Source: a virus. Taken from it: a stretch of 26,346 nucleotides of DNA. The stretch lies in the IMG/VR virus record IMGVR_UViG_3300034073_002919, positions 1-26,346 of that record. One strand, written 5' to 3'. This document shows positions 4,854 through 23,343 of the stretch, one piece after another (position 1 is the first letter of the stretch; each line of letters opens with the position of its first letter). The translations under genes were made by a program, and so were the position numbers. The notes below the pieces were generated by a model, which worked only from the letters and a program-made list of their open reading frames with translations, searched no databases and was not told the DNA's origin.

Positions 4854-5166
4854 AATAATAAAAATGATTGTCTATAGCACCTTTATAGTCCTGTAAAGAT
4901 GGTATAAGAGGAAAAGGAATTGTCAATATAGCGCCATCATATATATAATTTTCCAATCCACCAAACTCAGGATTTGCCATCAAAATTAACCAACCGAAAT
5001 ATGGCGTTCCATAAAATTCTTGTGAGACTTTATCTAATCTACTTTTAGCAACTCTATAAATATATGTTCGGTCACTAACCTTAGATGGCAGATTCACGTA
5101 AGGAACTACTGTTTGTTCTCCGTTTATTAAAAAATTAGAATATCTATTGTAATATGAAAAACCCAT
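4843..5166 (-). CDS. Baseplate wedge protein, gp53-like with LysM-type fold
   Basis: This 107-aa protein has the signature of the short LysM-like baseplate proteins (T4 gp53 N-terminal domain, tail protein X type). It contains YRVAKSRLDKVSQEFYGTPY, then FGWLILMANPE, then a closing ILTIPFP strand. In this family the domain helps clamp baseplate subunits together around the hub. The ATG overlaps the stop of the 1657-aa gene by one base (TAATG), and its own end overlaps the next giant gene by 11 bases. The three genes therefore look like one translationally coupled unit. T4 gp53 is about twice this length, so this may be only the LysM core. Family assignment is fairly sure; equivalence to gp53 rather than another LysM tail protein is inference. 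Confidence 0.7.
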   Translation of the reverse strand: MGFSYYNRYSNFLINGEQTVVPYVNLPSKVSDRTYIYRVAKSRLDKVSQEFYGTPYFGWLILMANPEFGGLENYIYDGAILTIPFPLIPSLQDYKGAIDNHFYYYGR

Positions 5167-10153: not shown

Positions 10154-10160
10154 ATAAATA
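10154..10160 (-). promoter_or_regulatory. TATTTAT promoter-like word before the 1657-aa gene
   Basis: On the coding strand the context is ACGC-TATTTAT-TATAAAA, with 14 bases between the word and the ATG. It lies in the short gap after the tape-measure gene. No Shine-Dalgarno sequence is visible in the A/T-only leader. Confidence 0.5.
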
Positions 10161-10174
10161 GCGTAATTATTTTT

Positions 10175-12025
10175 TTATGCTGGACGACCTATAGATTTGC
10201 TTTGATACTCTTCTGTTTTTGGTTTTACTGCATTTACAATTTTTTCAACAAATTGATTATCTCCTAATTTAGAAGTAAATATTTCTTCAAATTTATTCGT
10301 ATCATAATCAAATCCAGGTTCTTTAGAAAAGACTATTCTCAAAATAGGTATTTCACCAAAACTAACATTATATTTATTTTCGTTAATATTTTTGTTAACC
10401 GTGTATTCACTCATATCACTTGTATAGCTCTTAGATACAATTTCACGGGCTATAGGATTTCCATAATTATTGTTTTGATATTGTTGATATTGTTGGTTTT
10501 GTTGACCATCATACCTGTATGATGCCTCTTTAAAAAAGGGTATATTAAATCCTGTTTTTTCTTGGAGAAGTTTTATAAACTCTGATAACTTTTTTGGTAA
10601 CTCGTCCATGAAATTTTTTCCTGACTCCATAAATTTTTGCATTGTGGGTTTCAAATCCTCATAAAATTTCTTTACATCATTATTCAAAAAGGTTTCGAAA
10701 TTTTTTTGAATATCCTCTATTTTTTCATTTGATGCAAGTCTAATATCTTGTTGGGTCATTCCTCGTAGTAGTGTAGTTGATAGTTTATTGATTTGACTAA
10801 CTATATCGTCAGATAACTTTAATCCTTCGAGTGCATTTACTAATTTTTCAGGTGTTGACGCGGCAAGTACTAAAGAAGCTTTTTGTGAAGTAATTTCCGC
10901 TAATATATTTTCTAATCTGTCAAGTTGGTCTTTAGCAATTTGTTGTACGTCTTTGCCTTCTTGTCCTTCTCTTTGTCTTTCAATCAGTTCTTGTAGTTGT
11001 TCATCTCTTGCATCTTGTAACGATATTGTTTTGTCTACACCTTCGTCTTTAACTGTAATTTGATATTGTCCTCCTGAACCAAGTTTTGCAATATTTGCAA
11101 TATACATTTTATCTTCTTCATTTTCAAATTGAAAAGAAGGTGAAATTTGTGATAACTTTCTATCTAAATCAGCAGCACCAATTGCCAACTTATTAAGTTC
11201 CCCACCAGTCATTCCCATTTCTTTTCCTATCTCTCTTAGCATTAACATTCCTTGAGGATTAATTTTGAATTGGTTTGCCTGTTCATCAAAATATGTAAAT
11301 TGTTTGGTCATTTCAATTATACTATTTTGTAAACCCTCAGGGTCTGTTAATGCCTTATTCATTAATTGGAATGGGTCAGTCAAAGTACCAACAGAAACAC
11401 CCATTCTTTGGAATGCGGAAGACATTTCAATAGCCTTTTCTGGATTCAGAACTTGTTCTGCAAATCCCATCGTTACCCCCATATCAAATTTAAGTAATTG
11501 TGCTTGTGTTGACATTCTAGTTAAACCCATAACTCCATCTTGGAAATTAAACTGATTTAACTTATCTATGTTCTTAACAATATCAGCATAAACGTCTCTA
11601 GTATTAGCACCAATACTTTGAATATACCTAACAGACTCTCCTACTTTACTACCGATGTTTGTAAATTGAACCCCTATTTTTTCAAAACTATCAATTAAAG
11701 TTTTCGTTTCTACACCTGTTAATTTATTTGAAGCATATAGTTTGGAAACTTCTTCTCCGGTTGCGAGAACGTTTCTTTTTGTTGCAGAGGAGACATTATC
11801 AATTATATTAATAGCATCAATTCCTGTTCCTCCGAGTTTATTTACCAATGGTATAGTAGCAGAAACCGCTTCACTGAACTCTGTAACTCTTTGTCTAGAT
11901 TGTCCGAATCTTTCATTTAAAATAGTTATTGCATCATATACTTGTGCAATAGTTTCCTTCGTTTCTTCTGTCTTTGGTAATGCAGAAATGACAGGTGATA
12001 ATAATTTAAATATAAAATCAAACAT
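10175..12025 (-). CDS. Tail tape-measure protein
   Basis: This 616-aa protein starts with a hydrophobic/helical segment (MFDFIFKLLSPVISALP). It continues as a mostly helical chain with long Ala/Ile/Asn/Gln heptad-like stretches, including GLTRMSTQAQLLKFDMGVTM around residue 165 and a polar helical section around residues 330-400. A Gln/Asn/Tyr-rich linker lies near residue 520, followed by a compact C-terminus. Such a protein would fill the tail tube and set its length. T4 gp29 has 590 residues, so a T4-sized tail near 90 nm would follow from the usual 1.5 angstrom per residue rule (inference). It lies directly downstream of the gp26-like/frameshift gene, where tape-measure genes sit in many phages. 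A terminator and a TATTTAT word stand just before it. The call rests on position, size and helical character. Confidence 0.72.
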   Translation of the reverse strand: MFDFIFKLLSPVISALPKTEETKETIAQVYDAITILNERFGQSRQRVTEFSEAVSATIPLVNKLGGTGIDAINIIDNVSSATKRNVLATGEEVSKLYASNKLTGVETKTLIDSFEKIGVQFTNIGSKVGESVRYIQSIGANTRDVYADIVKNIDKLNQFNFQDGVMGLTRMSTQAQLLKFDMGVTMGFAEQVLNPEKAIEMSSAFQRMGVSVGTLTDPFQLMNKALTDPEGLQNSIIEMTKQFTYFDEQANQFKINPQGMLMLREIGKEMGMTGGELNKLAIGAADLDRKLSQISPSFQFENEEDKMYIANIAKLGSGGQYQITVKDEGVDKTISLQDARDEQLQELIERQREGQEGKDVQQIAKDQLDRLENILAEITSQKASLVLAASTPEKLVNALEGLKLSDDIVSQINKLSTTLLRGMTQQDIRLASNEKIEDIQKNFETFLNNDVKKFYEDLKPTMQKFMESGKNFMDELPKKLSEFIKLLQEKTGFNIPFFKEASYRYDGQQNQQYQQYQNNNYGNPIAREIVSKSYTSDMSEYTVNKNINENKYNVSFGEIPILRIVFSKEPGFDYDTNKFEEIFTSKLGDNQFVEKIVNAVKPKTEEYQSKSIGRPA

Positions 12026-12041
12026 ATCGTAACTTTATCTT

Positions 12042-12048
12042 ATAAATA
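12042..12048 (-). promoter_or_regulatory. TATTTAT promoter-like word before the tape-measure gene
   Basis: Coding-strand context is TTC-TATTTAT-AAGATAAAG, ending 16 bases before the tape-measure ATG. It follows immediately after a terminator hairpin, an arrangement expected of a new transcription unit. Confidence 0.55.
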
Positions 12049-12050
12049 GA

Positions 12051-12076
12051 ATAAGGACTGAAAATTCAGTCCTTAT
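12051..12076 (-). terminator. Intrinsic terminator after the gp26-like gene and its shifted extension
   Basis: A perfect 12-bp inverted repeat, ATAAGGACTGAA / TTCAGTCCTTAT, has a nominal 2-base centre and is followed on the minus strand by T-rich sequence (CTATTT). The stop codon of the shifted frame (12066-12068) lies inside the stem, so this hairpin closes the gp26-like transcript. Confidence 0.8.
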
Positions 12077-12218
12077 TATGTAATTCTTTCCATTTGTCGA
12101 GAAGATATCTTCTTGTAAAAATTGGCATTTTTTCAAAATCACTCCAACCAACATTAAAAAGAGTTGATAAAAAATAAAACTCATCAATCTGAATTTTTCT
12201 ATATTCAGAAGAAAGGGC
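12066..12218 (-). CDS. Frameshift-encoded C-terminal extension of the gp26-like protein
   Basis: In the +1 frame relative to the gp26-like gene, an open stretch of 50 codons runs from GCC at 12218 to TGA at 12068-12066. It begins ALSSEYRKIQIDEFYFL and has FNVGWSDFEKMPIFTRR and YLLDKWKELHNKD further on. It looks like real protein: aromatic/charged helices, a Trp, and an ending exactly in the terminator. The only in-frame ATG is 20 codons before the end, and a TAG lies upstream of the shift site. Independent initiation is therefore unlikely, and ribosomes would enter by slipping on the T6C run. Joined to residues 1-243 of the gp26-like protein it gives about 293 aa. Layout and place before the tape-measure gene match tail assembly chaperone pairs (lambda G/GT, P2 E/E+E'). 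T4 has gene 51 next to 26, but gp51 is far longer, so homology is uncertain. Confidence 0.65.
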   Translation of the reverse strand, partial: ALSSEYRKIQIDEFYFLSTLFNVGWSDFEKMPIFTRRYLLDKWKELHNKD

Positions 12219-12948
12219 GAAAAAAGTCCACCCCAAATCCTACATTAACTCGTAGATTTTCTCCTGATGGGGTTACAACTATTTTAGTCATATCTAATTT
12301 TGGCTCATTTTTTTCAATAAATGATTTAACATATTTAGAATCTAATATTGGCATTTGTTCTACAAATTTTGCAATTTCACCCGCATCATTGACACCATCA
12401 ATCTCAACTATTTGTTTTTGAAGCTTCATAGTAACCTTTGGGAAAACCCTTCCTTTCGGATAAGAAGATTCTAATTTATTGATATTCATAATTTCACCAT
12501 ATGTAAGAGGTTTTATTTTTAAATTAGAACCACTTTTAGGTAAAGTTATTGAAAAAGTACCGTCTGCGTTTGGTTCTTCTCCCTTAATTATAGGTAATGA
12601 ATCTAATGCAACAACGGTGTTAAAAATTTTATTTGTTTTTGGGTCAGTAAGGCTTATCTCCATTTCAGGTCCAAATGAAGTATTTCTCAAAAAGATTAGA
12701 ACCGCTTCAATATCACCTTCTAACAAATCATCTATTCTTACATCTGGTTCATATATCTTATTTCTTAATAAAGAAGTTGTAATGTTGTCTCCGCCTCCCA
12801 AAAGTATATTTTCATCTGATGCAGTTAAATATCCAACCTTTAATGACTTTTTTTTATTTTTATAGAAAATTCCCTCAGAAGGTAATGGTACCACATCATG
12901 AGGTAATGTCAGATTTTCTTGGCCATAAATTCTTGATTGTTCATCCAT
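12205..12948 (-). CDS. gp26-like baseplate/tail assembly protein (T4_baseplate family)
   Basis: This 247-aa protein has the opening typical of T4 gp26 relatives: DVVPLPSEGIFY, a short Lys-rich strand, YLTASDENIL, then LLRNKIYEPDVRIDDLLEGD and LIFLRNTSFGPEM. In T4 this family acts in assembly of the baseplate hub. The same fold is used by tail assembly chaperones that coat the tape-measure protein. No zinc-binding Cys pairs are seen in the middle. The frame ends GVDFFRPFF, and a T6C run five codons before the stop offers a shift into a 50-codon extension. The ATG lies only 3 bases after the T-run of a terminator, so output may be held below that of the tube gene upstream. Family call is good; the chaperone role is inferred from family and position. 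Confidence 0.72.
   Translation of the reverse strand: MDEQSRIYGQENLTLPHDVVPLPSEGIFYKNKKKSLKVGYLTASDENILLGGGDNITTSLLRNKIYEPDVRIDDLLEGDIEAVLIFLRNTSFGPEMEISLTDPKTNKIFNTVVALDSLPIIKGEEPNADGTFSITLPKSGSNLKIKPLTYGEIMNINKLESSYPKGRVFPKVTMKLQKQIVEIDGVNDAGEIAKFVEQMPILDSKYVKSFIEKNEPKLDMTKIVVTPSGENLRVNVGFGVDFFRPFF
12219..12225 (-). promoter_or_regulatory. Candidate programmed frameshift site (T6C)
   Basis: Zero-frame codons are GAC-TTT-TTT-CGC. A +1 slip lets a Phe tRNA (anticodon GAA) move from TTT to TTC, a better match, and puts the ribosome in the 50-codon open frame. A -2 slip leads to the same frame. It is not a standard X-XXY-YYZ heptamer for -1 slipping. Confidence 0.6.
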
Positions 12949-12951
12949 ATG

Positions 12952-12989
12952 TAAAAAAATTAACCCTGAATTTTATTATTCAGGGTTAA
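12952..12989 (-). terminator. Strong terminator between the tube gene and the gp26-like gene
   Basis: On the minus strand a 12-bp perfect stem, TTAACCCTGAAT / ATTCAGGGTTAA, with a 6-base loop is followed by a run of seven T. The next ATG is only 3 bases beyond. It probably ends most tube transcripts while allowing limited read-through into the assembly-protein gene. Confidence 0.85.
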
Positions 12990-13012
12990 ATATACTCATT
13001 CTAAATTAGAAA

Positions 13013-13019
13013 ATAAATA
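13013..13019 (-). promoter_or_regulatory. TATTTAT word between the tube stop and the terminator
   Basis: Context is TAC-TATTTAT-TTTC, just past the tube stop codon and 64 bases from the gp26-like ATG. Unlike the other copies, the terminator hairpin lies between it and the gene. A transcript starting here would carry that hairpin in its leader. Confidence 0.35.
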
Positions 13020-13022
13020 GTA

Positions 13023-13511
13023 TTAATACACTAAAACACATCTGTCCATTCTCAACATCGCAGTTATTGTTGCAAGTCCGTCTTGAGAATAATTCAAATT
13101 ACCAAAATCAACAGATGTTAGGAAGGTTCCATATAGAATCCATTTCTCAACAACAACTCCTGTAGGGTCCAACATTTCAATATCAACATCTTTTTTGTAA
13201 CCCGCAGCATATCCCATACGACCAGTAACAGATTCTGCGTGTAGACGAACCCATTCCATAAGAGCTTGTGATGCTGAAGGACCTATTGGGTCTCTGAACG
13301 TAACATTAAAAGCATCCCAATTAAACCTTCCCGCAACATAAGTTGATGTATTCAGAAAAGGAATGTCAATTTCTTTGATTTTTATACTAGGTCTTTTAGC
13401 ACTTTCTACAAACCATTCGTTAATACCTAATGAACTTGGAAATCTAAGAATGAAACGATTTTGTCTTTTCGGTTCATACGGTAGGGGCATTTTCATTAAT
13501 AAGTCAGCCAT
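13023..13511 (-). CDS. Tail tube protein, gp19-like
   Basis: This 162-aa protein has the size and pattern of T4 gp19, the subunit whose stacked hexamers form the inner tail tube. It opens with PYEPKRQNRFILRFPSSLGI (about residues 11-30), followed by WFVESAKRPSIKIKEIDIPF. A beta-rich middle includes WDAFNVTFRDPIGPSASQAL and the helix MEWVRLHAE. It closes with ILYGTFLTSVDFGNLNYS and ATITAMLRMDRCVLVY. These fit the family's barrel-plus-helix layout. It has its own upstream TATTTAT word 33 bases before the ATG and a strong terminator after it, suiting a highly expressed single-gene unit. No truncation is evident. Confidence 0.92.
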   Translation of the reverse strand: MADLLMKMPLPYEPKRQNRFILRFPSSLGINEWFVESAKRPSIKIKEIDIPFLNTSTYVAGRFNWDAFNVTFRDPIGPSASQALMEWVRLHAESVTGRMGYAAGYKKDVDIEMLDPTGVVVEKWILYGTFLTSVDFGNLNYSQDGLATITAMLRMDRCVLVY

Positions 13512-13544
13512 ATCTTAAAATTTAATTTTTTCTTGTTTATACAT

Positions 13545-13551
13545 ATAAATA
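13545..13551 (-). promoter_or_regulatory. TATTTAT promoter-like word before the tail tube gene
   Basis: Context is GGTTA-TATTTAT-ATGTATAAAC, 33 bases before the tube ATG, within the 96-base gap after the HAD gene. The remaining gap is A/T-rich and holds only weak inverted repeats. Confidence 0.5.
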
Positions 13552-13607
13552 TAACCTACTCTAAAAATTTTTCTATTTACTTTTTTTTTATAGAAATTAA
13601 AATATAA

Positions 13608-14432
13608 CTAGACTTCTTTTTTAGCTCCAGTTGCAGTAGAATAAGTTTTTACTAGTTTATCTGGTTTATCTTCAAAATGCTTCTTCATTACTTCTACATT
13701 CTTAGGGTCATCGTCAGAAAATCCTATAGTAAGTTTCTCTGGAACAAATTTATTACCTATTTCTTTCTTTAAGTATGCCTTTTTATTAAGTAATGCCGCC
13801 ATTCCTTTAATATAAGAAACAAATTCATCCATTGCAATAACCTTTAATTCTTCTGGGCTAGCAGCACTTCCTTGTCCAAATGTAACTGGATGGTATTTAT
13901 TAAGTTCTAAATATGTTTTGATTAATTCATTATCACTCATATCTTCCTCGTCCACAAACTTCCTATATTTTCTTAAATTTTTGACCAATTCTTTTTTATC
14001 GATTCCATTGAATCCTGTTAAGATATAATTGTAAATTGCTTTCTTTATTGTTGTTGGATTATGCCCTCTTGCTGTTATTATCGCAAATATTGAACCATTA
14101 TTTATAGCTTCTCTGAAATCATTGAACGCTGGTCCTGTTTTAGCTTTGAGTGAATCAGATATAAACTCTTTATCCCCTTCAGTTCTGAAATTTCTAAAAG
14201 CGTTATTTGCGAACCCCACAATTTTTTTACCTTGATACTCAAATGGTTTGTTTCCAATATCGTGTCTATATTTTGCAAAATCATCTGTACTCATACCGAC
14301 CTCATCCCCATCTTCAGTTTTTAATATAATTTTTGTTGGCATGTGTACAATGTTATCATCCCAATCAAAGGCATAATACTTCATATTTGGTGTAGTATCA
14401 TCCTTAAAACCTTCTTTGATAATATAAATCAT
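13608..14432 (-). CDS. HAD-superfamily phosphatase-like protein
   Basis: This 274-aa protein carries the HAD motifs in order. Motif I is YYAFDWDDNIV (D23 as likely nucleophile, D25 as acid/base). Motif II is IFAIITARGH (T120). A conserved lysine (near K233) comes next, and motif IV is IGFSDDDPKNVEVMK (D240-D242, metal binding). The section between motifs I and II (residues 28-115) is a long cap-like insert with ST-DFAKYR and a GDKEFI stretch. HAD enzymes commonly remove phosphates from small molecules, nucleic-acid ends or proteins; the substrate here is unknown. The gene has its own TATTTAT word and stands between sheath and tube genes, which in T4 are adjacent. A start at Met17 (14384) is also possible. 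Superfamily is sure; role in tail biology is open. Confidence 0.8.
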   Translation of the reverse strand: MIYIIKEGFKDDTTPNMKYYAFDWDDNIVHMPTKIILKTEDGDEVGMSTDDFAKYRHDIGNKPFEYQGKKIVGFANNAFRNFRTEGDKEFISDSLKAKTGPAFNDFREAINNGSIFAIITARGHNPTTIKKAIYNYILTGFNGIDKKELVKNLRKYRKFVDEEDMSDNELIKTYLELNKYHPVTFGQGSAASPEELKVIAMDEFVSYIKGMAALLNKKAYLKKEIGNKFVPEKLTIGFSDDDPKNVEVMKKHFEDKPDKLVKTYSTATGAKKEV

Positions 14433-14466
14433 ATTTAGTAAATATTGTTTGAAACTATTTCTTCAT

Positions 14467-14473
14467 TATAAAT
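14467..14473 (-). promoter_or_regulatory. TATTTAT promoter-like word before the HAD gene
   Basis: Context is TTCAA-TATTTAT-AATGAAG, 34 bases before the ATG and just downstream of the sheath terminator. Confidence 0.5.
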
Positions 14474-14486
14474 ATTGAATAAAATA

Positions 14487-14512
14487 AAAAACCCCTCACT
14501 ATGGAGGGGTTT
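14487..14512 (-). terminator. Intrinsic terminator after the tail sheath gene
   Basis: A 10-bp stem, AAAACCCCTC / GAGGGGTTTT, has a 6-base loop and continues as a T-rich tail on the minus strand. It lies about 20 bases after the sheath stop codon and is the most GC-rich hairpin in the window. Confidence 0.88.
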
Positions 14513-14532
14513 TAATATAATCTAAGTTATTG

Positions 14533-17500
14533 TTAGATATTTTCAAACGAAGCACCTGTTGGTGTTATGAAGAATTCAATCTCAATAAATTCAAGTGCTT
14601 TTGTTGGTTTAAGATAGATTCTACCTGTAAGTGTGTTTCTATCCAAATCTTCAGGTGAAGAAGAAACCGTTACTCTAAAGTCATAAAGACCTCTGTCTCT
14701 TCTGATTGAATCAAGGATTGGGTTAACACTATCCAAGAACTGTTGTCTTACGATTTGGTCGTTTTGTTCGAACAACAATCTTACTGCCACTGCAGAAATC
14801 AATTTACGTGCTTGAAGAAGTAATCTTCTAACATTCAATCTATCTAATGCAGAACTAGCAACTTGTAATGTTTTGTTACCCCATATTACTGTACCAACGT
14901 CAGAGAAAGTTGCAATTGGGTTAATTCTACCTTGATATAGAGTATCTCTATCTTCTTGAGTTAGTTTTAATCTTGCCTTAACAGAGTTAACTAAACCTCT
15001 TGTATAACCCGCGGATGCGAACCAAGGGAAAGCTATATTATCTGTAAGTGCTAAGTTTCTACAAACCTCACCTGTTGGTGGTAAATAAATTTGTGTATTA
15101 TTTACAGTATCTCTAACCAATATCCAAGGATAGTATGTTGCGGTATAGTTTGAATCTATTGCTGAATTATCCAAGTTGTCAACTGCTTCTTGAGGACGAA
15201 TTATCAATTGTGAATCAGTAGCGTCTGGTTGATACATTGGGTAGTCAGGTGTAGTTGCGATGTATACAGAGTCAGCTCTTGAGAACTGTACCATGTTAAT
15301 TGTTTCCTCAACCAACTTTGGATTATTTACATAATCAATACTTGATGTTGCAAAAACATTTATATTTGTAGATTCAGGATTTGCAAAAGTCAGTATTCCC
15401 AAAAGATATGCGTAGTAGTCAGTGTTAGCGAAGTCTTGAGTATTACCTTCAACAGGTATTCTCTTAAACATGCCTTCACCAGTTGCTGAAGGATATCTAA
15501 CTGAAGGTGCTGCACCTGCCAAATAACCTGACGCTCCTAATCTAAATCTATCTTGATTTGTACGATTCTCTCTATAAATGTCCCATCCATCAAATCCTCC
15601 TGCAAAACACATAGTGAATTTTCTAGAATAGATATAGTAGTATGGGTTCTCTTGTGTTTCAGGGTCTGCTCTGAATTCTGCACTACCTACTTGGAATGCA
15701 GGGTCACCACTTGTAACATACTCGGAACCGATAGTAACTACAGTAGCACCTGAGTCCATATGGAAACCTTGTGTTAGGTAATTCCAAGGAACTGAATCGT
15801 ATGCTGTACCCCAAGTACCGGCTGAAGGATTTCTCTTTCCCTTATATTGTAAGAAAGAAACGTCAACACCCAAAGAAGTTGAAAAACCTAAGTAAGTTCT
15901 TCTTACGTTATCACCTGAAGAATCATCAACTGTTGCACCGTATGCTGAAATACCAAATGGAGGATTGTATATTGTTTCTCCAGGAAAATCATATTTTGTT
16001 TTATAAACAGGTACTGGAGAAGGATTTGATATTGCATCATAAATTCTTTGGTCATAACCATAGAATCCACAAGGTAAGGCATCTATTGGGGCTTCGTTTG
16101 ATATTTCAATCATTATATATTTTGAAACCAAAGGATACTCTCCGTCAAATGAACCAATTTTTTTACCAACAAAACTATTAGATGCTGGGTCCATAGTACA
16201 GTTTGTGAACTTTTCTATAACAACAGGATTTTGGTCAGTATCAAAGAAACTTCTTACTAATACATCAAATGAAAGATTAGAGAATGAAATATTTGCAATT
16301 GAAACTTTAACCTCTGTGTTAGCACCCGTACCATCAGATATTGATAAGAATCTGAATAACTTATAAACTTTATTTCCTCTCAACTCTGAAACAACATATG
16401 GTGTTTGAGGAGTCGTATATTTTTCCAAGTTCCATGCGATAGAATCTGCATTGAAACTACTTGCCTCAGGAAGTGCAATCAAATCACAACTTAATCCACG
16501 AATATAACCTTTATCGTAAAGATAATTTAATGCCACAGGGTAAACCTCTTCAACAAAGATTGGGACTTCATTTTTAGATTTACCAAAATTATCAACACCT
16601 AATACTTTAGTGATGTATTTACTGCTAACCGCAGATAATGATGTCTCAAAAGAGAAGGTGTCCCCATCTCTTGTGATACCTGATAGTAAGAACGTAGAAT
16701 AAGGGTTTGAAGAAACACCTGAGTAAGAACCTGTACAATCCAAAACAACATCAGTTGTTCCGGTTACTTCATATTGTGGTCCATGATTGTTTGAATCATA
16801 TAAAGAAACACCTCTTGAACGTAAAGTTGCAACAACTAAATTATTATATTCACTATATGCAGTACCTGAGTAAGTATAAACATTACCCGATAATGTTCCT
16901 GTATAAGTAGAAGATGCTCCTGACGTAAAATCAGAAATTACATAATCAAAAGAGAAACCTGAATAAGACTCACTTGTATAGTTTGAGAAATTTGAATACA
17001 ACCAAGCAGAGTTATCAGTATTTGATAATGTGTTGGCAGATAAACTCAAATTATTAACACCAAATACATTTGTTTGTGCGGTATATGTTGTCACCAAACT
17101 GTTGTAATCTTCTGAAGGAATTGAACCGTAAAATATTGCGGTAGTTCCTGTTGTAGAAGAGTTAGTTGCGAATGATGTTAATATATCAGTAAAGTCTTCG
17201 TTGAAAGTTGAAGTACTTCCATCAGAAAGTCTGTACTGAGTATTTAACAAATTATTTATTTCAGTTGGAAGTGATGATGTTAGAGATGCTGTACTTGCAG
17301 ATGCAACACCTGAGAAAGTAACAGTGAACGGTACAGCGGCTCCGTCAATTCCTATAGTTGAAGGATTTACATTCGCGGTAACTTTCAAAGTCCAAGAAGG
17401 ACCCGCATCATATCCTGACAAACCTAAAATTCTTGTAACAAATAACTGATTAGATTGTTGAAGATAAGATTTCGCAATATACGAAGCTTCGTATTTTGGA

Positions 17501-17724
17501 ATCTGTGTATTCACAAATTTTGTTGGTTCTGTTCCTCCAAAAAAAGCTTGGAATTCATCAAAATTTGTTATGAAAATTGGTTCGAATGCAGGACCCTTCA
17601 AAGTCTCACCAACCAAACCTAGTGTAGTTACACCTACACTCTGAGCCACAAAAGACAAGTCTGTTTCTGAAGTATAAACACCTGGAGAAACGAAAACTTT
17701 TTGATTTGTTTGTACTGTTGCCAT
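14533..17724 (-). CDS. Tail sheath protein, gp18-like
   Basis: This 1063-aa protein matches contractile sheath proteins. The N-terminus has VFVSPGVYTSETDLSF followed by TTLGLVGETLKGPAFEPIFI and a strand/helix pattern up to about residue 105 (SNQLFVTRILGLSGYDAGPS). The C-terminal domain has INPIATFSDVGTVIWGNKT, LDRLNVRRLLLQARKLISAV and a final beta strand, KALEFIEIEFFITPTG, that in this family swaps between neighbouring subunits. T4 gp18 has 659 residues. The extra length lies mainly in a Ser/Thr/Tyr/Gly-rich insert (about residues 110-345) and further middle inserts, probably surface-exposed domains. It has its own TATTTAT word 34 bases upstream and a strong terminator, as expected for an abundant virion protein. 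Confidence 0.93.
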   Translation of the reverse strand: MATVQTNQKVFVSPGVYTSETDLSFVAQSVGVTTLGLVGETLKGPAFEPIFITNFDEFQAFFGGTEPTKFVNTQIPKYEASYIAKSYLQQSNQLFVTRILGLSGYDAGPSWTLKVTANVNPSTIGIDGAAVPFTVTFSGVASASTASLTSSLPTEINNLLNTQYRLSDGSTSTFNEDFTDILTSFATNSSTTGTTAIFYGSIPSEDYNSLVTTYTAQTNVFGVNNLSLSANTLSNTDNSAWLYSNFSNYTSESYSGFSFDYVISDFTSGASSTYTGTLSGNVYTYSGTAYSEYNNLVVATLRSRGVSLYDSNNHGPQYEVTGTTDVVLDCTGSYSGVSSNPYSTFLLSGITRDGDTFSFETSLSAVSSKYITKVLGVDNFGKSKNEVPIFVEEVYPVALNYLYDKGYIRGLSCDLIALPEASSFNADSIAWNLEKYTTPQTPYVVSELRGNKVYKLFRFLSISDGTGANTEVKVSIANISFSNLSFDVLVRSFFDTDQNPVVIEKFTNCTMDPASNSFVGKKIGSFDGEYPLVSKYIMIEISNEAPIDALPCGFYGYDQRIYDAISNPSPVPVYKTKYDFPGETIYNPPFGISAYGATVDDSSGDNVRRTYLGFSTSLGVDVSFLQYKGKRNPSAGTWGTAYDSVPWNYLTQGFHMDSGATVVTIGSEYVTSGDPAFQVGSAEFRADPETQENPYYYIYSRKFTMCFAGGFDGWDIYRENRTNQDRFRLGASGYLAGAAPSVRYPSATGEGMFKRIPVEGNTQDFANTDYYAYLLGILTFANPESTNINVFATSSIDYVNNPKLVEETINMVQFSRADSVYIATTPDYPMYQPDATDSQLIIRPQEAVDNLDNSAIDSNYTATYYPWILVRDTVNNTQIYLPPTGEVCRNLALTDNIAFPWFASAGYTRGLVNSVKARLKLTQEDRDTLYQGRINPIATFSDVGTVIWGNKTLQVASSALDRLNVRRLLLQARKLISAVAVRLLFEQNDQIVRQQFLDSVNPILDSIRRDRGLYDFRVTVSSSPEDLDRNTLTGRIYLKPTKALEFIEIEFFITPTGASFENI

Positions 17725-17758
17725 TATTATTGGTTTCTAGATTAGATTTATTTTATTC

Positions 17759-17765
17759 ATAAATA
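17759..17765 (-). promoter_or_regulatory. TATTTAT promoter-like word before the sheath gene
   Basis: Context is TCTAA-TATTTAT-GAATAAAA, 34 bases before the sheath ATG, the same spacing as for the HAD gene and nearly that of the tube gene. Confidence 0.55.
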
Positions 17766-17802
17766 TTAGAAGAACATGGAAAAAACTTTACTTTTTATAA
17801 TG

Positions 17803-17809
17803 TATTTAT
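17803..17809 (+). promoter_or_regulatory. TATTTAT promoter-like word before the small RHH gene
   Basis: Context is TAATG-TATTTAT-ATTTAG, 36 bases before the ATG at 17846. It lies back to back with the sheath promoter word, about 40 bases away on the other strand. Confidence 0.5.
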
Positions 17810-17845
17810 ATTTAGTATGAATAAATTCTACCTTTTTTATCTTTT

Positions 17846-18013
17846 ATGAGTAAACTATACGACAGCAATATAAAGAACATTAAAATATCTCAGAATGTAC
17901 ACGAAGTATTGAAAAGATACTGTGAGAGAAAAGGGATAAAGATTTACAAATTTTTAGAACAAATTATTCTAGAAAAATGTAAAGAAAAAAAAGACATCTA
18001 CGGAGAGGATTAA
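17846..18013 (+). CDS. Small ribbon-helix-helix-like DNA-binding protein (55 aa)
   Basis: A 55-codon frame reads MSKLYDSNIKNIKISQNVHE, then VLKRYCERKGIKIYKFLEQI and ILEKCKEKKDIYGED. A short strand (IKNIKIS) is followed by two helices split by KGIKIY. This is the layout of Arc/CopG-type ribbon-helix-helix repressors, which bind operators as dimers through the strand. It is the only plus-strand gene inside the tail block, placed head-to-head with the sheath gene. Its stop overlaps the stop of the converging 347-aa gene by 3 bases (TTAA). A TATTTAT word stands 36 bases upstream. It could regulate the sheath promoter region it faces, but that is inference. The gene is below common length cut-offs and easy to miss. 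Confidence 0.7.
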   Translation: MSKLYDSNIKNIKISQNVHEVLKRYCERKGIKIYKFLEQIILEKCKEKKDIYGED

Positions 18014-19053
18014 ACAATCTTGTTTGTGAAAACTATTTTGGATTCTAAGTTGTTATCGTTTTTCACAACATCAACTCTTAATACGTCATTAGTGTTAATC
18101 AATATTTGATTAACATCACTACCATAAAAATGATTATTAATGTAAACATCGTAAGATTGAACATTGATAGAAGAGTCTAATGTCATATTTACAGTATTGT
18201 CCATTATTTCGCTCAAAGAAGTTACACCTGTTAAATACAATAAAGTTTGTGTAAACTCATCAGGATTTTTTGGATACTGTTCATTTTTTTTACCCCTACT
18301 TGTATAAGGTTCAACTTCCATAACTTGTAATATTCTTGATATCGCAGGCTTAACTTCAAACTCGTCTTCGTCTATCAGGTATCCCAACATTATGAATTCA
18401 TAATTTTGAACGTAATATTTTCTTTTATCCAAATCACTAATACTTTCATCAGATATTGCATTCATCACAATTGGAACATATTGGCCTTTTATAAAAGTAT
18501 ACGATTGTCTCGAAGAGAATTTTTGTAATACAAGTTTATTGAATTGATTCAATTCTCTCATTCTATTACAAACTATTTTAATATTATATGTAACATCAAC
18601 AGGAACAGGTTGTGGTATTTTATAAATGTCCATTCCCTCTTGATTACCATTCCACGTTGGTACTGAAGCATAATAGAACTCTTTCCTATTTGGAATTGTA
18701 TATTGCAATGCAGGGTTACTACCATATTTAACATCAGGACTTCTAATTGTTGTGATAAAAGGTGGAGTAGGGTTGAAGTCTTGGTCAACAAAAGTCCAAG
18801 TTTCTGTGAACTGAGTCCAGTTTTGAGTTGTAATTATAATATCAATAGGAGGAACAAGTTTACCCGAAACAACTAGTTTCAACTCATTTTTTACAAAGTC
18901 TAACATACCTCTGTCCAAGTCAGCATGTAAAACTGATTTTGGAAGATAGGTACCATCTTTATTTATATAATCTTTAAGTTGTTCCCTTCTCTCATACAAT
19001 GTCTTATTGGGAACTAACGGTAATGATTTTTTTATTTGTACAGGAAATGCCAT
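18010..19053 (-). CDS. Putative tail terminator/sheath-stabiliser protein (gp15-like)
   Basis: The protein is 347 aa from the ATG at 19053 (MAFPVQIKK). A start at 19086 would add 11 residues but would lie inside the preceding gene and upstream of the TATTTAT word, so I prefer 19053. The middle (PVPVDVTYNIKIVCNRMREL, then NQFNKLVLQKFSSRQSY) recalls the strand-helix-strand core of T4 gp15-type proteins that cap the tail tube and sheath and join them to the neck. Its position between neck-type genes and the sheath matches gp15 in T4 gene order. The C-terminal 70 residues form a separate beta-rich unit. Virion role is likely, gp15 equivalence tentative. An alternative is another connector or baseplate protein. 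Confidence 0.5.
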   Translation of the reverse strand: MAFPVQIKKSLPLVPNKTLYERREQLKDYINKDGTYLPKSVLHADLDRGMLDFVKNELKLVVSGKLVPPIDIIITTQNWTQFTETWTFVDQDFNPTPPFITTIRSPDVKYGSNPALQYTIPNRKEFYYASVPTWNGNQEGMDIYKIPQPVPVDVTYNIKIVCNRMRELNQFNKLVLQKFSSRQSYTFIKGQYVPIVMNAISDESISDLDKRKYYVQNYEFIMLGYLIDEDEFEVKPAISRILQVMEVEPYTSRGKKNEQYPKNPDEFTQTLLYLTGVTSLSEIMDNTVNMTLDSSINVQSYDVYINNHFYGSDVNQILINTNDVLRVDVVKNDNNLESKIVFTNKIV

Positions 19054-19054
19054 A

Positions 19055-19474
19055 TTATTTTGATAAATAAATTTTATTATAACCATTTACCATATCCACT
19101 TCGTCTCCATGAAATATTGGTTCTTGTGTAGATTTAATTACAAAGCTATCGTTTTTATATGGATTGTACGATACAATCTCTCCTTTCGGTTCTTCAGGAA
19201 TATCAGAACAAGGAAACTCACAATAATCTTCCAAAGTACCAATAACAAATGCATGAACGTTTTTAACTTTCTCTTTTCTCACTTTTTCTAATCCACCCTT
19301 TCTAACTCTAAATTCAACATTAGACAGTTTCAAAAAATCAGCATGTAAAACAACTATTCCACTTTTTTGAACAGAAAAAGTATGTTTATGTAGATTGTAA
19401 TAAACCATAACTTTTTGACCTATAATGTTTTCTTTCAGAACATCTTTTTGTGATTCTGATATTAAAATAATCAT
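19055..19474 (-). CDS. Conserved phage protein of unknown function, YNLHK family
   Basis: This 139-aa protein has a recognisable conserved core: MVYYNLHKHTFSVQKSG, IVVLHADFLKLSNVEFRVRK, then GGLEKVRKEKVKNVHAFVIG. I recall similar YNLHK...KNVHA proteins in otherwise unrelated phages, with no known function. Its ATG overlaps the stop of the 170-aa gene by four bases (ATGA), so the two are co-translated. An AGGGG just before this ATG is one of the few Shine-Dalgarno-like sequences in the window. The last 40 residues are specific to this protein. No catalytic motif, signal peptide or membrane segment is seen. Its presence in the neck/tail-completion cluster might be due only to genome packing. 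Confidence 0.6.
   Translation of the reverse strand: MIILISESQKDVLKENIIGQKVMVYYNLHKHTFSVQKSGIVVLHADFLKLSNVEFRVRKGGLEKVRKEKVKNVHAFVIGTLEDYCEFPCSDIPEEPKGEIVSYNPYKNDSFVIKSTQEPIFHGDEVDMVNGYNKIYLSK
19063..19069 (-). promoter_or_regulatory. TATTTAT promoter-like word before the gp15-like gene
   Basis: Context is AAATT-TATTTAT-CAAAATAATATG, only 9 bases before the preferred ATG and inside the end of the 139-aa gene. If it is a -10 type element, the transcript would have almost no leader. Confidence 0.4.
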
Positions 19475-19983
19475 ATACCCCTAAATTCATTTTGATTAAC
19501 TGGAGTGGCAACAATAGTTCTATAGAACGGTTTGTATCCAGCGTATGTATGTTTATTGTCAGAAACTACCCTTCCGTCATCAGCCACAACATAATATCTA
19601 ACCCTTGATTCTGTTTCATAGTAGCCTAAATAATCACCAAACGCAATGTCTATTTGAAGTTCATCCAAGTATTTTTGATAAACAGAAAACATCATATTAC
19701 CCGGCTCTTCTAACTCAACTTTACTTGTACCAATTTTTTGATTTGTTGGTGCCATAATTTTAACTAACCCTTTAACTTCCACAGGCGGTAAAAATTGTAT
19801 ACCATCCTCAGGAGCCTCACCATATACGTCGTCTGTTTTTGTTTTATATCTATCTATTCTATATAAAATTACAGTGAAGTTCATATCACCTTGTAACCAT
19901 TCTTGACCCATATCAATATCCAAGGAATAATCTTCAGCCCCAAAAAATTTACCCAGTCTTGTGATAGGAACTAATTTCTGCAT
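19471..19983 (-). CDS. Putative neck/head-tail connector protein (gp14-like)
   Basis: This 170-aa beta-rich protein includes YSLDIDMGQEWLQGDMNF, IQFLPPVEVKGLVKI, LQIDIAFGDYLGYY and VRYYVVADDG. The stretch with a gapped GDYLGY strand followed by a Tyr-rich strand is reminiscent of T4 gp14 neck relatives (GD-IYFP type). The match is weak and the protein is shorter than gp14 (256 aa). It starts the minus-strand tail block and is coupled by an ATGA overlap to the 139-aa gene, just before the gp15-like and sheath genes. Location next to a gp13-like gene across the divergent region also supports a neck role. It could instead be an unrelated head-completion protein. Confidence 0.42.
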   Translation of the reverse strand: MQKLVPITRLGKFFGAEDYSLDIDMGQEWLQGDMNFTVILYRIDRYKTKTDDVYGEAPEDGIQFLPPVEVKGLVKIMAPTNQKIGTSKVELEEPGNMMFSVYQKYLDELQIDIAFGDYLGYYETESRVRYYVVADDGRVVSDNKHTYAGYKPFYRTIVATPVNQNEFRGI

Positions 19984-19990
19984 TTAATTT

Positions 19991-19997
19991 TATTTAT
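19991..19997 (+). promoter_or_regulatory. TATTTAT promoter-like word before the SET gene
   Basis: Lies on the plus strand 41 bases before the ATG at 20039. It is one arm of an inverted repeat with the minus-strand copy at 20001-20007. Confidence 0.45.
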
Positions 19998-20000
19998 TTG

Positions 20001-20007
20001 ATAAATA
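20001..20007 (-). promoter_or_regulatory. TATTTAT promoter-like word before the neck-type gene
   Basis: Context on the minus strand is TTGAGG-TATTTAT-CAAATAAATAAAATTAAATG, 17 bases before the ATG at 19983. It would drive the first gene of the tail block. Confidence 0.5.
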
Positions 20008-20038
20008 CCTCAAATTTTCTTATATTAGTAAAAAAAGT

Positions 20039-20440
20039 ATGAGAATATTACCTCCTACAAAAATATACGTATCAAAAAGTAATATTCATGGATATGGAAT
20101 ATTTGCAAAAGAAACCATATTGGAAGGTGAGTTAATTGAGGAATGCCCAATATTTGACTTAAACATACCTTTAGGACATGCCAGCCCACTATTCATCGAC
20201 TACAGATTTAATTGGCCACAAGGAACTTTAAATTGGACAAAACAAGTAATTGCTTGGGGATATGGTAGTTTATATAATCATTCTGATAGTCCAAACGCAT
20301 ATTGGAAATCTAACATAGAAAAAGAGACATTTGAGTTTTATTCAATAAAACAAATAAACCCAGATGAAGAAATATTAGTTTATTACGGTGACGTTTCATA
20401 CTGGCAGGACGGAAGAAACCATGTTGAGGTTAAGAAATGA
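20039..20440 (+). CDS. SET-domain protein-lysine methyltransferase-like
   Basis: This 133-aa protein is a minimal SET domain, a fold that moves a methyl group from S-adenosylmethionine to lysine side chains. Visible landmarks are IHGYGIFAKETILEGELIEE (about residues 17-36, SAM-binding GxG type), IAWGYGSLYNHSDSPNAYW (the NHS knot motif, about residues 71-89) and INPDEEILVYYGDVSYW with the catalytic-type Tyr (about residues 107-123). No pre-SET or zinc-binding post-SET segment is present. It starts a plus-strand group; its TGA overlaps the helicase ATG (ATGA), so both are probably made together. The target is unknown; it might be a phage structural protein or a host protein. Fold assignment is good, activity unproven. 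Confidence 0.85.
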   Translation: MRILPPTKIYVSKSNIHGYGIFAKETILEGELIEECPIFDLNIPLGHASPLFIDYRFNWPQGTLNWTKQVIAWGYGSLYNHSDSPNAYWKSNIEKETFEFYSIKQINPDEEILVYYGDVSYWQDGRNHVEVKK

Positions 20441-22188
20441 TGAACGAAAGTTTAGAATCGAGAGCAATTGAACTTCTAGAATTTTATGAAGGAAGTAATA
20501 ATTTTATTTTAGAACTGAAACGAAGGTCTCAGTTAAATAAAAAGTTTTACCCAACGAGAAGTCAATCTGAATATATTATAAATAATCATAACAAAAATCC
20601 AAAAGTTGCAAAAAAATGGGTTGTGTTAGATGCTTATTTTGCACAGAAATTTGCTAACGATAAACTCTTGACTGTAGTACCTGAAAAGATTTGGATAGAA
20701 AAATTATTGGCAGAAAGTGATAAGGCATATCATGTTTGGGGTAAATTTTTTGAGGACGGTGTTTTGAACGATTTTTGGGTTCCTAAGGCTTCTCTCATAA
20801 AAGATAATACCGTTAAGGATGTTGTTATTGATTATACAAAATATTCTAACAGACCTCCTATGGAACATCAGAAAGCATCAATCCAAAAATTGGTCGAAAA
20901 CAAAAAGTTTATTTTGGCCGATGATATGGGTTTGGGTAAAACAACATCCACCATAATTGCGTCGTTAGAAACAAAATCTAAAAAAATTCTTATTATCTGT
21001 CCTGCAACATTAAAAATAAATTGGAAGAGAGAAATTGAAAATTATACTGATAGGTCAGTATTCATTGCTGAAAGTAAAAACTTTAGTACTGAACATGATT
21101 TTGTAATCATAAATTATGATATACTTAAAAACTTCCACGACATAAAAAACAAAGAGGAGTCTCAAATAATTAAATCAAATTTTGATTTGGTAATTGTTGA
21201 TGAAGCCCACTACATAAAAAACGCACAAGCACAAAGAACAAAGTTAATTAACGACATTGTTAAAAATATTGAAAGGCTTTGGTTATTGACAGGTACCCCA
21301 ATGACTTCAAGACCAATTGATTATTTTAATCTATTAAGTTTGGTTGACTCACCTGTTGCCAAGAATTGGATGGCATATGTTATCAGATATTGTGCAGGAT
21401 ATCAATTTAAGGTTGGAGCAAAAAAAGTTTGGAACGTTATGGGTTCTTCTAATTTGGAAGAACTAAGAGACAGAACATCAGGAACTATTTTAAGGAGATT
21501 GAAAGAGGATGTACTTGACTTACCTGATAAAATAATATCTCCCGTATATTTGAGGTTGAAATCAAAAGAATATGAAAACTTGATGGGTGAATATTATGAA
21601 TGGTACAGAAGTAACCCAGAAGAATCAAAGTCTTTAACCGTTCAGTTTACAAAACTAACAAAAGTAAGACAGGTAATTGCAAATGAAAAAATATCTCAAA
21701 CAATAGAACTTGCAGAAAATATAATTGAGCAGGGAAAAAAAGTTATTATTTTTTGTAATTTTACAGAATCATTAAATCAAATTTTTTCACATTTTGGAAA
21801 AAGTGCAGTGAAGATAGATGGGTCAATGTCCAAAATAGAAAGACAAAATAGTGTAGATAAGTTCCAAGAAGATGAAAAAATAAAAATATTTGTGGGTAAT
21901 ATCAAAGCGGCTGGAGTAGGTATTACATTAACCGCAGCAGAAGCGGTAATAATGAATGACCTATCTTTTCTACCTTCTGACCACTCACAAGCTGAAGATA
22001 GAGCATATCGTATAGGCCAAAAAAATAATGTTTTGGTATATTATCCTTTATTCGAAAACACAATTGAGGGTTTAATTTATGATATCTTAATCGCCAAAAA
22101 ACAAGTAATTGCGACAGTACTTGGTGATAACTTAAATGAAACAGATTTTGTTGAAGAAATAATGAACAGAATCAATAATGGTGGATAA
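20437..22188 (+). CDS. SNF2-family DNA helicase/translocase
   Basis: This 583-aa SF2 enzyme is of the SNF2 type. MEHQKASIQKL (Q-motif-like region, near residue 142) is followed by ADDMGLGKTT (Walker A, 161-170). Then come IICPATLKINW (motif Ia), VIVDEAHYIKN (DEAH box, 255-258) and LLTGTPM (motif III, 285-288). The second lobe has VIIFCNF, a KAAGVGITLTAA motif and QAEDRAYRIGQ (motif VI, 518-528). SNF2 enzymes move along double-stranded DNA. The phage-sized members resemble fork-remodelling SMARCAL1-type proteins and could serve replication restart, as UvsW does in T4 by a different family. The N-terminal 135 residues form an unassigned domain. The start may be either of two adjacent ATGs (20437 or 20440). 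Confidence 0.9.
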   Translation: MMNESLESRAIELLEFYEGSNNFILELKRRSQLNKKFYPTRSQSEYIINNHNKNPKVAKKWVVLDAYFAQKFANDKLLTVVPEKIWIEKLLAESDKAYHVWGKFFEDGVLNDFWVPKASLIKDNTVKDVVIDYTKYSNRPPMEHQKASIQKLVENKKFILADDMGLGKTTSTIIASLETKSKKILIICPATLKINWKREIENYTDRSVFIAESKNFSTEHDFVIINYDILKNFHDIKNKEESQIIKSNFDLVIVDEAHYIKNAQAQRTKLINDIVKNIERLWLLTGTPMTSRPIDYFNLLSLVDSPVAKNWMAYVIRYCAGYQFKVGAKKVWNVMGSSNLEELRDRTSGTILRRLKEDVLDLPDKIISPVYLRLKSKEYENLMGEYYEWYRSNPEESKSLTVQFTKLTKVRQVIANEKISQTIELAENIIEQGKKVIIFCNFTESLNQIFSHFGKSAVKIDGSMSKIERQNSVDKFQEDEKIKIFVGNIKAAGVGITLTAAEAVIMNDLSFLPSDHSQAEDRAYRIGQKNNVLVYYPLFENTIEGLIYDILIAKKQVIATVLGDNLNETDFVEEIMNRINNGG

Positions 22189-22191
22189 CGG

Positions 22192-22215
22192 AAATATTCA
22201 AAAATATGAATATTT
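22192..22215. repeat. Short A/T-rich inverted repeat before the neck gene
   Basis: AAATATTCA and TGAATATTT are separated by 6 bases. The right arm overlaps the TATTTAT word. It could be an operator-like site or a weak hairpin. Confidence 0.35.
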
Positions 22216-22217
22216 AT
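22211..22217 (+). promoter_or_regulatory. TATTTAT promoter-like word before the gp13-like gene
   Basis: Context is ATGAA-TATTTAT-TGTTATG, only 4 bases before the ATG, in the 33-base gap after the helicase. A transcript starting just downstream would be leaderless, so the spacing is unusual. Confidence 0.4.
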
Positions 22218-22221
22218 TGTT

Positions 22222-23343
22222 ATGTCTGTAATATCTGAACCAGAAAGAAGTCAAATTTATACAAGATTAAAACACTTGTTAGGAGCTCCACTTAGAAGCG
22301 TGGAACTCGAAGATGAAATGTTAGATTCGCTAATGGAACTTTCTATTGGTGATTATGAACAATATATTTTGGATTGGTTGATAGAATCCCAATGGGTCAA
22401 CCTTGTCAACTTGGACATGTCCAATCAATCAGTTGCAAACGCACTTATAACAAGGACTATGAACTTTGAACAACAGTTTCAATATTCATATTCTAAAATT
22501 GTTGGACTACAAACAACAGGTCCTTGGGTCTTAAAGAAAGATTATTTTACATTAAGCGCAAACACACAAACTTACGAAATACCTGCAGGTCGTGAAATAA
22601 ATGAACTACTATGGTATAGTAATCAACCGTGGGGTATGTTTGGATTAGGGGGTATGGGTTTGGGTTTTGGATATGATGGTGCTGGTTTGGGAGCAAATCA
22701 ATCAGGATATGCCCAATTTGGATATCAGGGTTCTTACTTTATGATGTCAGGATTTGACTACCTAATTAGAGCACAAGAAGCAAATATCTTAAGTAGAATT
22801 TTAGGTGGTAGTTTAACATACAGAATCACTGCATTACCTGACGGAAAAAAAATGATTCACCTAATGAACACACCAAATGGTAGATTTAATTGGACGAGTT
22901 ATAGTTCATATGCAGGAAAAAATGTGTGGTATTGGTATTATGATACAACAGGACATGACAGAAACGCTTGTCTGAAAGCGAATCCAGATATAATCAAATT
23001 ACCATCAGATGTACCAACAGGAGGATTAGAATGGGCCGACCTTAATGATTCCGCAAAACAATGGGTTCGTAGATGGTTTACCGCATACGCAAAAGAAACA
23101 TTATCTAGAGTTAGAGGTAAGTATAGTGGAAACTTGAAAACCCCTGATAGTGAATTATCAATGGATTACACAAGTTTATCTACAGAGGCAAAAGATGAAA
23201 AATCTAAATTAGAAGAAGAATTAAAATTGAGACTCGAAAGATTAAGACCTGAGAAACAAATGGAGAAAGAAGCATTGATTGCGGAAAATTTAAATAAACA
23301 ATTGAAGTTCCATGCTTTCCCAAGACAAATTTATGTAATATAA
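22222..23343 (+). CDS. Putative neck protein, gp13-like
   Basis: This 373-aa protein starts with a helical segment (SEPERSQIYTRLKHLLGAPL) and ends with a pattern I associate with T4-like gp13 neck proteins. That pattern is KQWVRRWFTAYAKETLSRVR-GKYSG followed by MDYTSLSTEAKDEKSKLEEE and a long charged helix. gp13 closes the filled head and joins it to the tail. T4 gp13 is 309 aa. The excess here includes a Gly-rich stretch at about residues 136-170 (GMFGLGGMGLGFGYDGAGLG within it), probably a flexible loop. The small gene that follows starts six bases after its stop. A head-tail junction role is likely; the exact match is tentative because the evidence is motif recall. Confidence 0.58.
   Translation: MSVISEPERSQIYTRLKHLLGAPLRSVELEDEMLDSLMELSIGDYEQYILDWLIESQWVNLVNLDMSNQSVANALITRTMNFEQQFQYSYSKIVGLQTTGPWVLKKDYFTLSANTQTYEIPAGREINELLWYSNQPWGMFGLGGMGLGFGYDGAGLGANQSGYAQFGYQGSYFMMSGFDYLIRAQEANILSRILGGSLTYRITALPDGKKMIHLMNTPNGRFNWTSYSSYAGKNVWYWYYDTTGHDRNACLKANPDIIKLPSDVPTGGLEWADLNDSAKQWVRRWFTAYAKETLSRVRGKYSGNLKTPDSELSMDYTSLSTEAKDEKSKLEEELKLRLERLRPEKQMEKEALIAENLNKQLKFHAFPRQIYVI

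Follow-up and report, generated by a model that had tools for sequence, protein, structure and literature searches.

TATTTAT as the probable lone -10 element of late promoters in a T4-like lineage of uncultured aquatic phages

What is the word TATTTAT doing in front of so many genes of an uncultured phage? The window analyzed here is the whole of IMG/VR virus record IMGVR_UViG_3300034073_002919, and behind its 26,346 bases there is no larger genome. Its genes are those for the tail and neck of a contractile phage of T4-like type (baseplate wedge and hub, tail tube, tail sheath, and head-tail adaptor); a helicase gene and one for a family B DNA polymerase are also present. A preliminary description of this DNA had noted TATTTAT on the coding strand ahead of eleven genes, eight on the minus and three on the plus strand, and all eleven copies are indeed there. 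We put the probability at approximately 0.78 that the word serves a phage-specific class of late promoters as their lone -10 element, is read by a one-chain sigma factor of ~249 amino acids (aa) together with the host core RNA polymerase, and often gives leaderless messenger RNAs (mRNAs).

It is the position of the word, rather than its number, that is unusual. Across both strands of the window it occurs 21 times, against 20.9 by shuffling, and is thus not over-represented overall. Nevertheless, it lies within 70 nucleotides (nt) before 10 of the 17 gene starts, and not one of 5,000 dinucleotide shuffles gave more than 5; the eleventh site, with a gap of 64, falls just beyond this limit. For comparison, the best count reached by any word of seven letters (7-mer) in 1,000 shuffles of the window was 8. 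The clustering at gene starts first described is therefore as marked as was claimed. A single internal copy had also been reported, which is correct for the coding strand and incomplete overall, as nine more copies lie antisense within genes. The gaps given at the time are right, with one exception (before 13608-14432 the gap is 35, not 34).

The next question is whether these sites are kept. At least 598 IMG/VR stretches carry relatives of the sheath, of which 80 loci, 69-87% identical, were retained; the phage collection held no record covering 80% of the window's sheath. At the six best window sites, TATTTAT is present in 194 of 198 ortholog upstream regions. Five are on the minus strand, where the word would serve as -10 element for the operon of 5166-10139 (1657 aa, baseplate region; word at 10154..10160, gap 14, kept in 34/34 orthologs and mostly at a gap of 13-16), for 10175-12025 (616 aa; 12042..12048, gap 16, 10/10), for the tail tube gene 13023-13511 (phrog_4542/45; 13545..13551, gap 33, 37/37), for the tail sheath gene 14533-17724 (phrog_23; 17759..17765, gap 34, 42/42), and for 19471-19983 (170 aa; 20001..20007, gap 17, 38/42). 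The sixth, on the plus strand at 22211..22217, precedes the neck adaptor gene 22222-23343 (phrog_211) by only 4 nt and is kept in 33/33 orthologs, in 28 of them at a gap of 4 or 5; from this gap, the neck adaptor transcript is predicted to be leaderless. The converse also holds. Genes lacking the word had been described as nearly all coupled to their upstream neighbor, and among the orthologs of such coupled genes it is found upstream in just 0/18, 1/24, 0/24, 1/39, and 0/29 cases.

Enrichment extends well beyond the tail region. Counting non-coupled starts, TATTTAT precedes 248 of 360 in the 80 related loci (24.8 expected) and 153 of 315 in six related contigs of 107-172 kilobases (kb; 15.9 expected). 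A genome-scale count, which the preliminary description had proposed as a check, could be made for two large relatives, 321 and 309 kb long, and it bears the idea out: 94/201 and 82/236 starts, where 9.7 and 13.3 are expected. As a control, TATAAATA was recovered by this pipeline from the late region of T4 (12/27 vs 0.6), and crAss001, a Bacteroidota phage, shows no TATTTAT.

Which promoters, then, serve the other genes? In the two relatives above 300 kb, starts without TATTTAT are enriched for TATCTTTG (34 vs 0.7), which is the -7 element of Bacteroidota promoters, and TTG is often found 17-21 nt upstream of it. The two classes are near-exclusive, with 6 starts in common (odds ratio 0.13, P 5e-9). 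The pattern of the Bacteroidota sigma-A, TTTG at -33 and TAnnTTTG at -7, is not seen at the TATTTAT sites and is found at a separate class of 64 starts; a scan for the sigma-70 consensus returned fewer sites than the shuffles (53 vs 65). This host-type class points to Bacteroidota as the host of the branch to which the window belongs.

The classes also divide by function. TATTTAT precedes virion and lysis genes, namely sheath, tube, and neck in the window, and endolysins, portal, and tail fibers, as well as a chitinase, in the two large relatives. Host-type promoters there precede genes for a tRNA nucleotidyltransferase, a phosphoesterase, and a UmuD-like protein; the class also holds a protease family named head maturation or ATP-dependent protease by PHROGs. 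It is important to remember that “late” is used here in a functional sense, not that of a time course, because it rests on these gene classes. The original suggestion of a late promoter thus stands as far as the word marks late-type functions and the host-type promoter other genes; late timing and the actual transcription starts are what we infer.

The spacing between word and start codon is the most telling property of the sites. In 98 of 298 TATTTAT sites the word ends 4 or 5 nt before the ATG, and gaps of 0-3 nt almost never occur (counts from gap 0 upward: 0, 1, 1, 0, 50, 48, 12); a second peak stands at 13-16 nt, with 38 sites at 14. In the same phages the host element TAHHTTTG has 23 sites with a gap of 4 and a second, broader rise at 14-18. 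In Flavobacterium johnsoniae, TAnnTTTG spans -12 to -5 and ends 4-5 nt before the transcription start (PMC6847099). With the host-type element spaced alike at other genes, TATTTAT acts like a -10 element. For both, +1 in the 4-5 nt class falls on the A of the ATG, and those mRNAs should therefore be leaderless. At sites far from an ATG there is a peak of A 12-13 positions after the first T, where transcription would be expected to begin, and this peak is independent of the start codon.

The surroundings of the word agree with this. A logo of 285 sites has upstream values of 0.19 bit at most, apart from the base next to the word, so that there is no strong -35 element; this neighboring base is almost never T (A, C, or G), and the downstream DNA is A-rich. 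A/T-rich DNA lies ~28 base pairs (bp) upstream of the inferred start, as described for host promoters. One-mismatch variants are barely enriched at the favored gaps, position 6 excepted, for which reason only the exact word was counted.

In the mechanism we propose, host core RNA polymerase carrying the phage sigma would open TATTTAT and begin transcription ~5-6 bp past the element. A gap of 4-5 nt to the ATG would then give a leaderless mRNA, and one of 13-16 nt a leader of ~8-11 nt, while the remaining genes would be served by a host-type TTG...TAnnTTTG promoter. Judged from the gaps, about a third of TATTTAT-driven messages should begin at their first codon. From this spacing, leaderless late mRNAs are expected to be far commoner than in Flavobacterium, in which 87% of the predicted transcripts carry leaders >10 nt (PMC6847099).

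If the element is the phage's own, what reads it? A search for a gp55-like sigma gene elsewhere in the genome had been suggested, and it succeeded in the relatives: phrog_234, the T4 late sigma family, finds a conserved ~249-aa protein in 13 of 18 related contigs (E 6e-5 to 2e-3), including all eight of the largest and the close window relatives G002, G004, and G006. Aligned copies are 77-91% identical to the first. Searched as a profile against PDB, this protein has gp55 as its top match (E 0.033), and hhalign against gp55 gives E 2e-4, or 3e-5 with 59 diverse sequences. For that set, phrog_234 is the best family and is matched by 21 of the 59 members.

An AlphaFold2 model from the 59 sequences (pLDDT, the predicted local distance difference test, 78), which replaced a first model from 8 similar sequences (pLDDT 63), has two helical domains at residues ~24-130 and 157-248. 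All 50 matches listed in a structural search with this model are sigma proteins, many of them full sigmas whose alignment covers residues 25-248. Sigma-E, in its -10-bound region 2, is matched with a root-mean-square deviation (rmsd) of 2.4 over 91 residues (Z 9.9), and T4 gp55 (7d7c_F) is third among the matches, as a remote one (Z 10.5, 118 residues, rmsd 6.9). The N-terminal domain is a remote relative of gp55 region 2. As modeled, the protein looks like regions 2 and 4 of a sigma joined in a single chain; the sigma-4-like assignment of the C-terminal domain, which comes from whole-chain alignments, is the weaker half, and that domain would presumably bind the beta flap. The earlier proposal of a phage-specific -10-like element, possibly with its own sigma factor, is thus supported and can be refined, as the word is strict and held in fixed register to the inferred start, and its likely reader is not a plain gp55 and apparently has a built-in sigma-4-like domain.

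Two features of the T4 machinery were also looked for. A hydrophobic/acidic clamp-binding tail is not evident, by eye only, at the C-terminal end of sigma alignment A1; and the sliding clamp gp45 (phrog_223) was matched in 0 of 8 contigs, which may be incomplete, or their clamps diverged. A search with phrog_12791 was also negative. Directly downstream of the sigma gene (L129-L136), every phage examined encodes a ~121-aa, helical-looking protein with an acidic-hydrophobic end. In several phages its gene has its own TATTTAT at a gap of 4-5, and a homologue can be recognized by eye in Mel-JY01 (WWT39503.1). It could be a partner or a recombination mediator.

An independent lineage allows word and sigma to be compared. 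Microcystis phage Mel-JY01, on which we found nothing in the literature, encodes a homologue of the ~249-aa sigma (24-27% identical), with relatives in at least 592 IMG/VR stretches. In loci with Mel-JY01-like sigmas, TATTTAT is the top 7-mer (78/201 starts vs 12.5). Within 100 kb of Mel-JY01 itself it precedes 15 of 49 starts (2.7 expected). There it marks 18 of 68 structural and replication starts, as against 2 of 58 in the 98-157 kb region (P 0.0004), and the flanks of the word show a pattern similar to that in the window's lineage. The word therefore follows the sigma family across host phyla.

Please note that a number of points weigh against this explanation. Genes were called with a simple open reading frame script, and the loci are mutually related, so that the enrichment counts are not independent. 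No sigma gene lies within the window itself. Similarity of single sequences to gp55 is weak (E 0.006-0.04), the 59-row sigma profile no longer retrieves gp55 from PDB, and the whole-chain structural fit has a large rmsd, because the two sigma domains are placed differently. The distant phage LR756508 (484 kb, 150 kb sampled; L144, L266-L268) has a sigma homologue, yet TATTTAT is found once where 1.9 are expected; perhaps its sigma recognizes a different word, or word and sigma are less closely tied than thought. Lastly, both relatives above 300 kb encode an RpoD-like sigma that could read TATTTAT there.

This last point is the basis of the first alternative, in which TATTTAT is read by the RpoD-like sigma of the phage or by the host sigma with a phage activator. 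Genes for this full-length RpoD-like protein, which has 265 aa and regions 1.2, 2, and 4, are present in G003 (132449-133246), G019 (291709-292503), G020, G021 (54706-55500), and G022, several larger relatives thus seeming to carry two sigma factors, and TATTTAT shares the first TA and the AT-rich character of the host TAnnTTTG. Mel-JY01, however, uses the word without having an RpoD-like sigma (best tblastn E 4.3). Its host is a cyanobacterium, so that reading by a host sigma would require two unrelated hosts to agree, and host-type promoters form a separate class that rarely shares a gene with TATTTAT. On balance we regard this alternative as unlikely. Some weak matches found by tblastn with the RpoD-like sigma (L085, L067, L054, and others) turned out to be the neck protein and were dropped. 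A scan of genome contigs with this sigma gave only distant sigmas of other phyla; the peptide patterns taken from it lay in variable stretches, so the scan is uninformative about the host. The gene immediately preceding the RpoD-like sigma in G021 carries a host-type promoter. The first and last 200 bases of G019 are identical but lie in repetitive sequence, which may be an assembly effect and is not proof of completeness.

Could TATTTAT instead be a translation-start or leader signal of the mRNA, and no promoter? That a third of the copies stand exactly 4-5 nt before the ATG would fit such a role. Coupled genes need translation too, yet they lack the word; the two sharp peaks and the tail of the spacing are common to TATTTAT and the host -10 element, from whose genes it is largely excluded; translation start signals in Flavobacterium are A at -3 and -6 (PMC6847099); and a cyanobacterial phage has the word too, at different spacings. 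A translational role is thus very improbable.

The reverse complement of TATTTAT is ATAAATA, and several of the TATTTAT copies found in T4, the control, are the far side of divergent TATAAATA promoters, so the sites might in principle be T4-type late promoters on the opposite strand. This is scarcely credible here: the sites of the tube gene, 5166-10139, 10175-12025, and the neck gene lie between genes of one direction, where a divergent-promoter effect cannot explain them, all orthologs examined keep them on the sense strand, and the gap histogram of ATAAATA is flat. Chance might be suggested by the unremarkable total in the window and by intergenic DNA of 79% AT. For the class it is refuted: in no data set of the lineage do dinucleotide shuffles come anywhere near the observed position, orientation, spacing, and conservation.

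With TATTTAT taken as a late -10 element, comparison with T4 is instructive. In the T4 late system of gp55, gp33, and gp45 there is likewise a lone AT-rich -10 element with A/T-rich DNA downstream and no clear -35, late genes lie on both strands, and a phage sigma, to whose region 2 the present one is related, works with the host core polymerase (PMC2988020). The T4 consensus, however, is TATAAATA, which is low in the two relatives above 300 kb (10 vs 3.3 and 10 vs 7.1 expected) and absent from the tested part of Mel-JY01 (0 vs 1.7). Furthermore, T4 divides the task between gp55 and gp33, whereas the ~249-aa sigma appears, in the model, to carry a sigma-4-like C-terminal domain, and many leaderless mRNAs are predicted here in contrast to T4. 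Late motifs found in silico near structural genes of KVP40, 44RR, S-PM2, and Aeh1 are very T4-like, or differ at -13/-12 (Aeh1), and none is described with TT replacing the central AA (PMC2988020). The present system works like T4 late transcription and is not a strict member of it, since the consensus differs and the sigma seems to be fused.

Section 9 of a review of T4 late transcription raises the question of why gp55 and gp33 are never found joined, no fused late sigma being known, and discusses a fusion of the gp55-gp33 type as hypothetical and not found in nature (PMC2988020). The part consulted of a jumbo-phage survey covers minimal and RpoD-like phage sigmas, as well as gp33 orthologs in T4-related jumbo phages, and mentions no two-domain gp55 (PMC7824862). 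We found no paper with TATTTAT as a phage late promoter. We would give even odds to the broader proposition that a widespread T4-like lineage with Bacteroidota and cyanobacterial hosts has a natural fused late sigma, combining a gp55-like domain 2 with a flap-binding domain 4, that reads TATTTAT without a -35, its Bacteroidota branch making many leaderless late mRNAs. As hundreds of phage contigs seem to encode this sigma and the matching word, the question asked in the review becomes directly testable.

The primary promoter of Bacteroidota, TTTG/TAnnTTTG, shares with TATTTAT the distance from element to start and the AT-rich stretch near -28 (PMC6847099); it differs in its TTTG end and occurs in these phages as the second class. 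Moraphages, as far as the consulted part of their description goes, resemble the window's lineage in being large aquatic phages with predicted Bacteroidota hosts, and in having sheath, gp19, gp25, gp13, PolB, and a sigma factor; that part describes no late promoter motif, and the comparison is by description only (PMC12619734). TATTTAT offers a simple marker of late genes in an abundant uncultured aquatic lineage.

The five remaining sites in the window are less secure. A copy at 14468..14474 (minus) is the probable -10 element of 13608-14432 (gap 35; 19/44 orthologs) and lies just after a terminator-like hairpin at 14488..14513 (minus; region folding at -14.8 kcal/mol). A similar hairpin at 12050..12077 (minus; -17.4 kcal/mol) stands directly upstream of the 12042 promoter. 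A copy at 17803..17809 (plus) is a possible -10 element of 17846-18013 (55 aa, Arc-like repressor, phrog_582; gap 36; 16/36). The copy at 13013..13019 (minus), before the baseplate hub gene 12205-12948 (phrog_150; gap 64; 18/33 orthologs at a gap of ~62), is doubtful as its promoter, because a further terminator-like hairpin on the minus strand (12989-12960) lies downstream of it. Weakest are 19063..19069 (minus), within the end of the upstream gene and before 18010-19053 (gap 9; 10/48), and 19991..19997 (plus), before 20039-20440 (gap 41; 5/30); given how poorly they are kept, both may be due to chance.

Some neighboring features are worth recording. The segment 17766-17802 (AAAAGTAAAGTTTTTTC), between the sheath gene and the divergent 55-aa gene, is near letter-perfect in many relatives, beyond what is expected of a spacer. 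The 274-aa product of 13608-14432, between sheath and tail tube, has no PHROG match and a HAD-like start (YAFDWDDNIVHMPT). The 133-aa protein encoded by 20039-20440 resembles, by eye, a SET-domain methyltransferase, which is odd in a tail gene region.

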